Shown here: piece by piece, positions 40,054 through 43,631 of the stretch
Numbering within the stretch: position 1 is the stretch's first letter
Layout of the letters: each line of letters begins with the position of its first letter
Position numbers and translations under genes: made by a program
From: an uncultured Opitutaceae bacterium
Lineage (GTDB): Bacteria; Verrucomicrobiota; Verrucomicrobiia; Opitutales; Opitutaceae
Direction of reading: 5' to 3'
Length of the DNA stretch: 48,163 nucleotides
Assembly: GCA_903929355.1 (NCBI GenBank)
Contig: CAIYUN010000021.1
Span: 1-48,163 of the forward strand
Notes under the pieces: generated by a model
Told to the model about the DNA's origin: nothing
Database searches by the model: none
What the model saw: the letters and a program-made list of their open reading frames with translations, nothing else

Positions 40054-41976
<1,923 letters not shown>

Positions 41977-41983
41977 GACGTAA

Positions 41984-42410
41984 GATTTACGAGGAACGAT
42001 TTACGATTTACGAGCCGGAGGCACCATGACGAAACAGGAACTTCTCCAACGGACGAAAACTTACGCGTTGCGCGTGATCAAGGCGGTGCGGGCGCTGCCG
42101 AAGGATGACGTGGCCGAAGTGCTCGGGCGTCAGTTGCTGCGATCTGGCACCTCGGTCGGGGCCAACCAACGGGCGGCGTGCCGGGCAAAATCATCGGCGG
42201 ACTTCCTCAACAAGCTCAAGATTGTCGAGGAGGAATGTGACGAGAGCTTCTTCTGGATGGAGCTGCTGGTGGAGTCAGAAACATTGCCGTTGCGCCGGCT
42301 CGAGGCCTTGCTGGGTGAAGGCGACGGAATCCTCTCCATCATCGTCGCCGCCATCAAATCCACGCGCGCCGCCCGCAGTGCGTAAATCGTAATTCGTAAA
42401 GTCGTAAATC
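41984..42410. mobile_element. Candidate four-helix-bundle cassette inserted in the sdh operon
   Basis: The left arm (41984-42013) is GATTTACGAGGAACGATTTA followed by CGATTTACGA. The right arm (42381-42410) is CGTAAATCGTAATTC followed by GTAAAGTCGTAAATC. Read on the opposite strand the right arm is GATTTACGACTTTACGAATT plus ACGATTTACG, so the arms are imperfect inverted repeats of each other built from GATTTACGA. They frame one gene. The stop codon of that gene lies within the right arm. Insertion between two genes that are otherwise adjacent in such operons suggests mobility; that is inference. Confidence 0.6.
42026..42385 (+). CDS. Four-helix-bundle protein (S23/Avd-like)
   Basis: A 119-residue all-helical protein of the TIGR02436/PF05635 family, first known from intervening sequences in 23S rRNA genes. 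Typical landmarks are RTKTYALRVIKAVRALP, the motif LGRQLLRSGTSVGANQRAAC, SSADFLNKLKIVEEECDESF and WMELLVESETLPL. The molecular function of the free-standing family is unknown; a relative (Avd) assists retrohoming in diversity-generating retroelements. It has a good Shine-Dalgarno, GGAGG at 42017-42021, four bases before the ATG, which most neighbours lack. It lies between sdhA and sdhB, inside inverted arms, and is transcribed with them. No reverse transcriptase is near. Confidence 0.92.
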   Translation: MTKQELLQRTKTYALRVIKAVRALPKDDVAEVLGRQLLRSGTSVGANQRAACRAKSSADFLNKLKIVEEECDESFFWMELLVESETLPLRRLEALLGEGDGILSIIVAAIKSTRAARSA

Positions 42411-42419
42411 CTCCTTTCC

Positions 42420-43229
42420 ATGGTCGCCCTCGCCACCCCCCGCACGCTCTCCGTCACCCTCCGCGTCTGGCGCCAGGCCGGCCCCGGCCAGCCGGGTAAA
42501 TTCGTGGACTATCCGGCGAAGGACCTCAGCCCCAACATGTCCTTCCTCGAGCTGCTCGACGTGGTGAACGACGGGCTCACCCTGCAGGGCGGCGAGCCGA
42601 TCGCGTTTGCCCACGACTGCCGCGAGGGCATCTGCGGCACCTGCTCGTGCACGATCAACGGCAAGCCGCACGGCCCCGGCCAGGGCATCGCCACCTGCCA
42701 GCTTTACCTGCGGACCTTCCGCGACGGCGACGTGATCGTGGTCGAGCCGTTCCGCGCGCGTGCGTTTCCGGTGGTCAAGGACCTGGTCACCGACCGCACC
42801 GCGTTCGACCGGATCCAGCAGGCCGGCGGCTTCATCACCGCGCGCGCGGGCTCCGCGCCGGAGGCCAACGCGCTGCCCGTGCCCAAGGGGGACGCCGACC
42901 TCGCGATGGACGCCGCGCAGTGCATCGGCTGCGGGGCGTGCGTCGCGGCGTGCAAGAACGCCAGTGCGATGCTGTTTGTCGCGGCCAAGGTCTCGCATCT
43001 CGGCCTCCTGCCGCAGGGCCAGGCCGAGCGCGACCGCCGCGTGCTCGCGATGGTCGCCACCATGGACTCCCTCGGGTTTGGCGGCTGCTCCAACCAATAC
43101 GAGTGCAGCGCCGCGTGCCCGAAGCTGATCTCGCACGATTTCATCGCGCGGCTGAACCGCGACTACCTCACCGCCAGCCTGCGGGCCACGTTCCAGCCCG
43201 AGCCCGCCGGCGGCGGCGGCGCGGGCTGA
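42420..43229 (+). CDS. sdhB: Succinate dehydrogenase/fumarate reductase iron-sulfur subunit
   Basis: A 269-residue subunit with three Fe-S clusters that link the flavin to the haem anchor. The 2Fe-2S ligands are C67, C72 and C75 in CREGICGTC, plus C93. The 4Fe-4S motif is [11 protein letters not shown] (C168, C171, C174) with C178-type continuation. The 3Fe-4S motif is [15 protein letters not shown]. Its start lies 9 bp after the right arm of the four-helix-bundle cassette, with no Shine-Dalgarno of its own; the sequence before it (TCCTCCTTTCC) is anti-Shine-Dalgarno-like. Translation may therefore depend on readthrough coupling across the cassette. A Gly-rich tail ends the protein. Confidence 0.96.
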
Positions 43230-43334: not shown

Positions 43335-43453
43335 CAACCTGCCAGGATCTGAGAGCAGGGCGCTGATTCATGAATGCTCATAAGCTAATGATGATGTATG
43401 ATAAACCACCGTTGGAAAACCAGGACGAAAACTGTTACGAACGGTCAGATTTG

Positions 43454-43525
43454 AACCACTGATGGACACTGATGAACACTGATTCTGAGGATCGGATCAG
43501 TGTGGATGAGTGTGCATAAGTGGTT
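43454..43525. repeat. CACTGATGAA-type palindrome, copy B
   Basis: The left arm is AACCACTGATGGACACTGAT followed by GAACACTGAT. The spacer TCTGAGGATCGG is shared with copy A. The right arm ends TGTGCATAAGTGGTT. Left and right arms are 30 nt each and pair with mismatches at every third or so position, the conserved part being AACCACT at the ends. Confidence 0.88.
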
Positions 43526-43631
43526 AAAGGTCTCAAAATTCATTCCTTCATGAATCAGCAGTGACAGAGATGTACCGCCGCCGATTTGACGCTCGCCAAA
43601 AAGCGCCGGTCGCGCAGCCTGCCTCGTTCAC

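Follow-up and report, generated by a model that had tools for sequence, protein, structure and literature searches.

The window analysed here, a stretch of 48,163 nucleotides from an uncultured Opitutaceae bacterium, raises the question of why a small four-helix-bundle gene framed by inverted repeats stands between sdhA and sdhB. The ORF, which is under purifying selection, and the inverted heptamer arrays around it are one unit that is present or absent at operon junctions. From comparison of sequences, the best explanation is that this unit is probably a selfish mobile cassette, with a ring protein that would recognise the heptamers in the cassette's arms, related to the intervening sequences (IVS) of 23S rRNA and somewhat like RAYT/REPIN.

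The locus between sdhA and sdhB

All features of the locus lie on the plus strand. The host gene upstream of the split junction, named sdhA by reading, occupies 40054–41976, and the downstream gene, named sdhB by reading, occupies 42420–43229 and has homologues in 60 of the 61 genomes of the window's taxonomic family. The left arm (41984–42013) consists of about four heptamers (TTTACGA units) and is inverted relative to the right arm (42381–42410). A GGAGG resembling a Shine-Dalgarno sequence was read at 42017–42021, between the left arm and the ATG at 42026, and the gene (42026–42385, 119 aa, S23/Avd fold) ends with a TAA at 42383–42385 that the right arm supplies. An earlier note on this DNA had described an S23/Avd-like gene splitting sdhA from sdhB, inverted arms of about 30 nt, a Shine-Dalgarno of its own and a stop codon built from the right arm, and each of these points was borne out. 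The note had also taken the arms to be made of 9-nt words; this unit was rejected, since the measured period is 7 nt and GATTTACGA is a 9-nt slice of a heptamer array. The identity at lag 7 was 0.74 in the left arm and 0.65 in the right arm.

At this locus taken alone, the score of the inverted match between the arms, 33, was reached by 3 of 2914 placements of the same geometry elsewhere in the window and in 1 of 3000 resampled flank pairs. When inverted pairs of 7-nt arrays were searched for, the window arms were the sole pair in the 48 kb, and one shuffled copy contained none.

The product of 42026–42385 matched PF05635 with 51.1 bits (cut-off 33.8) and TIGR02436 with 73.8 bits (cut-off 24). 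Nothing else in Pfam and NCBIfam exceeded the curated cut-offs, and no nuclease, transposase, integrase or HUH/Y1 domain was found there. The AlphaFold2 model of the protein (mean pLDDT 94.0) was similar to the solved structures 2rld (Z 19.1) and 2gsc (Z 16.9), and also to Avd, the protein of diversity-generating retroelements (DGR) (8ub8, Z 15.4; 8ub7, 15.3; 4dwl, 14.9; Avd chains 14.4–15.4). The 2rld and 2gsc entries contain five chains each, and we take both proteins to be pentamers. The dN/dS was 0.08 between the window gene and the copy in genome G001, and 0.00–0.10 over 7 close pairs of PF05635 genes, with dS above 1 in three of the 7, so the protein is maintained by purifying selection. 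PF05635 was present in 51 of the 61 family genomes with 0 to 15 copies per genome, and in at least 581 confirmed stretches in a scan of bacterial genomes, while phage records gave 2 weak matches.

Heptamer arms and their words at PF05635 loci

Two sets of loci were analysed for arms. The family set comprised 96 loci, from which 3 fused or broken ones (L005, L035, L108) were set aside beforehand, leaving 93; the named set, from many phyla, comprised 80 loci found with a tight six-sequence alignment, from which four at contig ends (L167, L168, L193, L235) were dropped, leaving 76. A locus was counted as armed when its inverted match exceeded the 99th percentile of shifted-geometry controls (369 for the family set). 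Inverted arms were detected in 75 of the 93 family loci, 46 of them above the control maximum, and in 62 of the 76 named loci. The test was failed by 18 family loci, 14 named loci and 14 of the 60 loci of a further set, which contains the window locus and in which L347 and L376, whose gene positions are wrong on cut contigs, were scored as failures. Swapping right arms between the family loci lowered the mean inverted score from 36.8 to 17.7, and in a first, narrower test, run on 92 loci with L005, L018, L035 and L108 left out, 70 loci ranked within the top 5% of their own swaps, and 37 even within the top 1%. Non-inverted matches were at background (mean 14.4 vs 15.2 in swaps). The excess of arms over chance, which the earlier note had made a test of its idea, is thus general to the gene family, and its proposal that free-standing four-helix-bundle genes form a class of such elements agrees with the armed loci in many phyla.

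The 7-nt period is equally general. Mean lag-7 identity was 0.554 in the family set and 0.55 in the named set vs 0.29 after shuffling, and other lags gave 0.24–0.31 except lag 14 (0.51–0.52). Strict units were counted in 312 arms of 156 loci by a method that admitted no arm with fewer than three; four units were found in 137 arms, five in 63, six in 8 and more than six in 17. At L002 and L033 the right arm is translated into the ORF as a repetitive C-terminal tail (e.g. RTPNPELQTPNPERQTLN), and similar repetitive tails of proteins in databases may have arisen by translation of an arm.

The reverse search, from heptamer arrays to genes, covered 848 kb (the window plus 400 kb from G000 and another 400 kb from G061). 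It gave eight inverted heptamer loci, of which five were PF05635 loci and three were gene-less pairs with arms 7–62 nt apart; no inverted pair enclosed another type of gene. One shuffle of each scanned piece and 50 kb of E. coli gave none. Direct pairs of 7-nt arrays were also found, 4 vs 6 inverted in G000 and 12 vs 3 in G061 (400 kb each), and periodic segments at lag 9 outnumbered those at lag 7 in both genome scans (199 vs 84 and 137 vs 102).

Each locus has its own word, which is common to its two arms; a simple transposon with fixed terminal inverted repeats was rejected on this ground. When arms were picked by periodicity alone, the match was 34.0 within loci and 11.7 between loci (69 of the 93 family loci were periodic on both sides). 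Seventy-one of the 93 loci sit in 17 junctions common to several genomes, and there the left and right arms of one locus (35.8, 53 loci) were more alike than orthologous left arms (25.8) or orthologous right arms (27.9), the left-right similarity across species being 25.0; own left-right similarity exceeded the mean ortholog left-left value in 42 of the 53 loci. In the same-junction group with the most similar proteins (identity 0.91) the order was reversed, with 54.5 for orthologous arms vs 39.5 for own arms, which suggests that the arms mutate apart in the short term and drift together in the long term. The two arms agreed at 0.885 in register vs 0.658 one unit off, with the offset chosen as the best one and with wrong positions for L347 and L376, so that no weight is placed on this figure.

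The word also follows the protein lineage. Where two family loci sat at different junctions and their proteins were at least 0.8 identical, the word score was 51.5; the 10 pairs of this kind are formed by 7 loci, all of one clade and spread over three junctions, with words of the GTAGCGA type. Same-junction pairs with identity below 0.5 scored 9.5 and 13.4 (6 and 8 pairs), against a background of about 12. At identities of 0.5–0.7, same-junction pairs scored higher than different-junction pairs (26.0 vs 13.2 and 30.7 vs 17.5), as expected for descent in place. A Mantel test of word against protein at different junctions (121 periodic loci) gave r = 0.351, with a null maximum of 0.067 in 500 permutations; in this test the named loci were not grouped by junction, a grouping that was applied in the pairwise word scores.

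At the level of subfamilies, the word of subfamily A, to which the window gene belongs, is GA(T/A)T(T/G)NN (52 loci, 4.36 bits vs a permuted maximum of 2.68), and that of subfamily B, the classical IVP, is RGNNNNN (127 loci, 2.70 bits vs a permuted maximum of 2.05). The subfamily was called correctly from the word alone in 169 of 179 loci under five-fold cross-validation, in which related loci across folds overstate the independence. This set omits L347 and L376 with their misplaced genes and L003 and L006, whose subfamily was judged by eye; before the omission the count was 169 of 181. Within the window's phylum the call was correct for 86 of 97, again with related loci across folds. Subfamily-A genes on plasmids were read in 8 of 26 records, and 7 of the 8, from Cyanobacteriota, Chloroflexota and Bacteroidota, scored higher with the grammar of A; one Planktothrix plasmid has GATTTACGATTTACGATT itself. 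At three cyanobacterial or Chloroflexota plasmid loci (L452, L454, L456) the cassette stands between DUF1156 and Swt1/HEPN genes, or between a helicase and an N-6 methylase gene, and these neighbourhoods look like defence operons.

Inverted word arms were also seen at genes of another family, PDDEXK_3 (PF13366), which we take to be GxxExxY and which occurs in 52 of the 61 family genomes (loci L422–L451). Their arms consist of AACCAC followed by about three CAC(A/G/T)GA(G/T/A) words. After L426, L437 and L444, which are short, were dropped, 27 loci had a mean inverted score of 44.6 vs 23.5 when swapped, and 18 of the 27 were in the top 5% of their own swaps. The PF13366 loci would be a second class of word-armed cassette. 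In the window itself, past the end of sdhB at 43450–43528, a gene-less palindrome of words of about 10 nt (AACCACTGATGGACACTGATGAACACTGATT with its inverse) resembles this type of arm, e.g. at L447 and L448.

Presence, absence and gene-less copies at operon junctions

The tail of sdhA was used as the query for comparing junctions. sdhB was found in 60 of the 61 family genomes, and 59 sdhA-sdhB junctions were readable. A PF05635 gene stands in 5 of them; those of G000, G001, G016 and G035 are similar to the window gene, while that of G059 belongs to another subfamily and has another word. Gene-less word arrays were found at 4 further junctions, with both arms in G022 and G058, and as 7-nt periodic arrays whose inversion is not significant in G017 and G052. 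Six junctions carry a different insert of 655–840 bp (L051, L061, L127, L128, L135, L146), and the one insert checked, at L061, encodes an ORF6N-domain protein. The junction of G056 is 295 nt, and the remaining 43 measure at most 80 nt, with 32 of them no longer than 33 nt. At the G050 junction (L047) a short gene-less stretch contains TCATCCTGAGCCAAGTCGAAGGATCC, a word frequent between genes in other bacteria.

Filled and gene-free junctions occur inside one genus three times (G059/G015, G016/G060 and G000 with G001/G050), and an SdhA tree with 59 tips requires 5 changes for the gene and 9 for gene-or-arms. Junctions without a PF05635 gene, which the earlier note had proposed to look for among relatives, are the majority (54 of the 59). 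Two outcomes had been named in that note as speaking against its idea, a gene fixed at this site and arms no better than chance; the gene is variable here, and the arms exceed chance.

A recent difference was found between the congeners G051 and G002. An operon of G051, read as atp, has a PF05635 cassette at one junction, and the adjoining junction holds about 105 nt of a copy that has the word of this cassette and CTAAT ends but no gene. G002 has neither copy, and the surrounding 907, 374 and 1379 nt are 96–97% identical to those of G051. The gene-less copy matches the cassette of its own genome better than any of 189 elements from other loci. The difference may be a gain in G051 or a loss in G002, the bare sequence of G002 being the one guide to its direction. 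No target-site duplication was seen in the G051/G002 comparison; the gene-free site differs beside the insertion, the last 30 nt or so of the upstream gene differ, and a short heptamer-like pyrimidine stretch is present at one of the two atp-operon junctions of G002. The flank of L401 in G051 gave no clean orthologous site. At another junction of the same two genomes the cassette genes are 65% identical and the words unrelated, while the adjoining flanks are about 95% identical (87–98% over 3.3 kb). The exchanged tract extends about 60 nt into the upstream and about 35 nt into the downstream gene, and since it includes gene ends it points to allelic exchange by homologous recombination, which is thus another way in which cassettes spread. 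The mobility proposed in the earlier note is supported in that arms and ORF appear and vanish together at junctions of close relatives.

Gene-less arrays are frequent at some junctions. At a Flavobacterium junction, in the best 30 of the matches in 118 genomes, the gene was present in 2 and 1 match was cut off, and 11 of the 17 gene-less gaps of at least 50 nt were inverted at p ≤ 0.01. Over all junctions, 14 of 22 gene-less stretches of at least 50 nt were inverted and 18 were 7-nt periodic (p ≤ 0.01), with a mean lag-7 identity of 0.52 vs 0.28 at other lags. One gene-less copy out of three did not match a word of its own genome significantly (P 0.097).

The sites are not random with respect to the host genes. 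Conserved neighbours could be resolved at 97 of 169 loci, and at 95 of them they are co-directional with the cassette on both sides; at none are they opposed on both. The earlier claim that the cassette invades transcribed loci agrees with this sense orientation, and the cassette may survive, as that note proposed, by keeping the host operon readable. Several observations count against mobility, namely the direct pairs of 7-nt arrays, the armless loci, the lack of a transposase domain in the protein and of an RVT_1 reverse transcriptase in the window's genome, and that no target-site duplication was identified; many sites also look old, given the share of loci in common junctions and the closer words of same-junction pairs at protein identities of 0.5–0.7.

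Mechanism, rival explanations and known relatives

In the proposed mechanism the element would consist of one PF05635 gene with an array of about four 7-nt units on either side, the two arrays being inverted. The ring protein with its S23/Avd fold would most likely recognise its own arms, each subunit reading about one heptamer. Recognition of the arms by the protein would explain why the word follows the subfamily and why both arms evolve together, and with one heptamer per subunit most arms would be expected not to exceed five units; the 25 of 312 arms with six or more are left unexplained by a strict five-subunit limit. Gene-less arm pairs could be moved in trans. The cassette would settle in sense orientation in junctions of co-directional genes and leave the host genes intact, and the sense orientation would be expected if host transcription supplies the expression of the cassette.

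An RNA-level element like the 23S rRNA IVS, in which the arms pair in the transcript as an RNase III substrate and the DNA is inherited or lost and hardly moves, is the first alternative and appears unlikely. The minimum-energy fold of 41970–42420 joins both arms (z −3.40), and the prevailing sense orientation also fits an RNA element. The Coxiella IVS offers a precedent, with a terminal stem of 28 bp, excision by RNase III and, ahead of the S23p ORF, tandem heptameric repeats whose number varies by strain (PMC4990558). For RNA arms to pair, however, no 7-nt period and no subfamily-specific word would be needed, and the arm word points the opposite way relative to the gene at the plasmid loci L453, L454 and L457. 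Wobble counts gave no support for a stem in the sense RNA: transitions compatible with G.U pairing on the sense strand numbered 146 vs 204 incompatible ones (181 loci, including the misplaced L347 and L376), an earlier wobble count was 56 vs 104, and the pyrimidine class was balanced at 65 vs 65; the asymmetry is confined to the A/G class and may reflect A-rich translation starts.

A second alternative takes the heptamer pairs as operator or RNA-leader sites through which the ring protein controls itself and its neighbours, the gene-less pairs being its regulon. The covariation of word and protein and the left arm directly ahead of the start codon are in its favour, and inverted pairs of tandem hepta- and octanucleotide repeats in Geobacter are listed as putative sites of a global regulator (PMC2700814). 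Orthologous junctions, however, are mostly gene-free or have other words, PF05635 copies per genome are few, and the occurrence of two copies, one with and one without the gene, in the same operon of a single species looks like spread; this alternative is unlikely. Polymerase slippage, with inverted pairs as a secondary and the adjoining gene as an incidental feature, is hardly credible and largely refuted as a sole cause by the inverted-pair scan, in which all eight inverted loci were PF05635 or gene-less and the controls gave none, and by the dependence of the word on the subfamily, although direct array pairs exist and heptanucleotides are the commonest class of 5–11-nt repeats in most genomes, for which slippage is proposed (PMC4679880).

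Compared with known systems, the selfish mobile cassette resembles RAYT/REPIN in having a gene flanked by inverted repeats and gene-less copies elsewhere. A RAYT presumably recognises its flanking palindromes, of which gene-less copies lie elsewhere, and it carries a catalytic HUH/Y1 domain; in contrast, PF05635 has no recognised HUH/Y1 domain, and its palindrome is built of heptamers, with a word that is different from one locus to another. With DGR Avd the window protein has the four-helix-bundle fold in common (4dwl, 8ub7, 8ub8), but its gene is free-standing between sdh genes, and RVT_1 reverse transcriptase had 0 matches in the window's genome (96.2% complete), so that a DGR was rejected. 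The cyanobacterial STRR, a gene-less family of tandem heptamers, is similar to the arms in being tandem and largely intergenic. The same holds for the repeats of Geobacter, which include inverted pairs (PMC2700814), and for the TAACTGA repeats of Beggiatoaceae, reported as direct sets and one inverted set (PMC4679880), but the accessible parts of both papers describe no linked gene family or mobility. The resemblance of PF05635 to Avd is stated in a DGR paper (PMC10053308).

The closest likeness is to the 23S rRNA IVS, which has the same protein family, a size of about 430 nt, inverted arms of about 28 bp, heptameric repeats and a suspected mobility, older proposals having regarded IVS as transposition remnants or mobile elements (PMC4990558). 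The heptamers are published there for a Coxiella arm and treated as a local feature, and they are not known to define the IVS class. Unlike an IVS, the window cassette is not known to be excised, and it lies in a junction of protein-coding genes and not in an rRNA (helices 9, 25 or 45); an Rfam scan of the window gave no match at the gathering score, so the cassette is not inside an rRNA gene, and a scan for rRNA at 20 of the 80 named loci gave no match either. The PF05635 cassettes are also dispersed, with several copies per genome and a word that differs per locus, and their protein is under strong purifying selection, whereas decay is reported for Coxiella (PMC4990558). Because protein, arms and heptamers are the same and the location is different, the element was filed as a variant of the IVS kind. 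Within the open-access literature, a scope that excludes most subscription papers and bioRxiv, no description of heptamer arms at free-standing PF05635 genes was found.

A wider reading is tentative and somewhat doubtful. Free-standing PF05635 genes, rRNA IVS and ultimately DGR Avd would form one ancient class, in which a ring protein reads an evolving heptamer code at about one heptamer per subunit, the arms are rewritten in concert, and code and protein diverge together. A large part of the bacterial inverted heptamer repeats that lack an explanation would then be its gene-less satellites, and the PDDEXK_3 genes with their arms of CACNGA words would be a parallel second class.

Three findings go beyond the earlier note: the period is strictly 7 nt, the word is linked to the protein subfamily, and copies exist that lack the gene. 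If PF05635 genes are heptamer-armed mobile cassettes, one mechanism would account for these genes, for rRNA IVS and for many gene-less inverted heptamer repeats, and possibly also for how DGR Avd arose. As natural, matched recognition pairs, the linked words and proteins would help in learning how nucleic acid is read by a ring protein, and how a mobile element alters its end sequences and yet keeps its own recognition.
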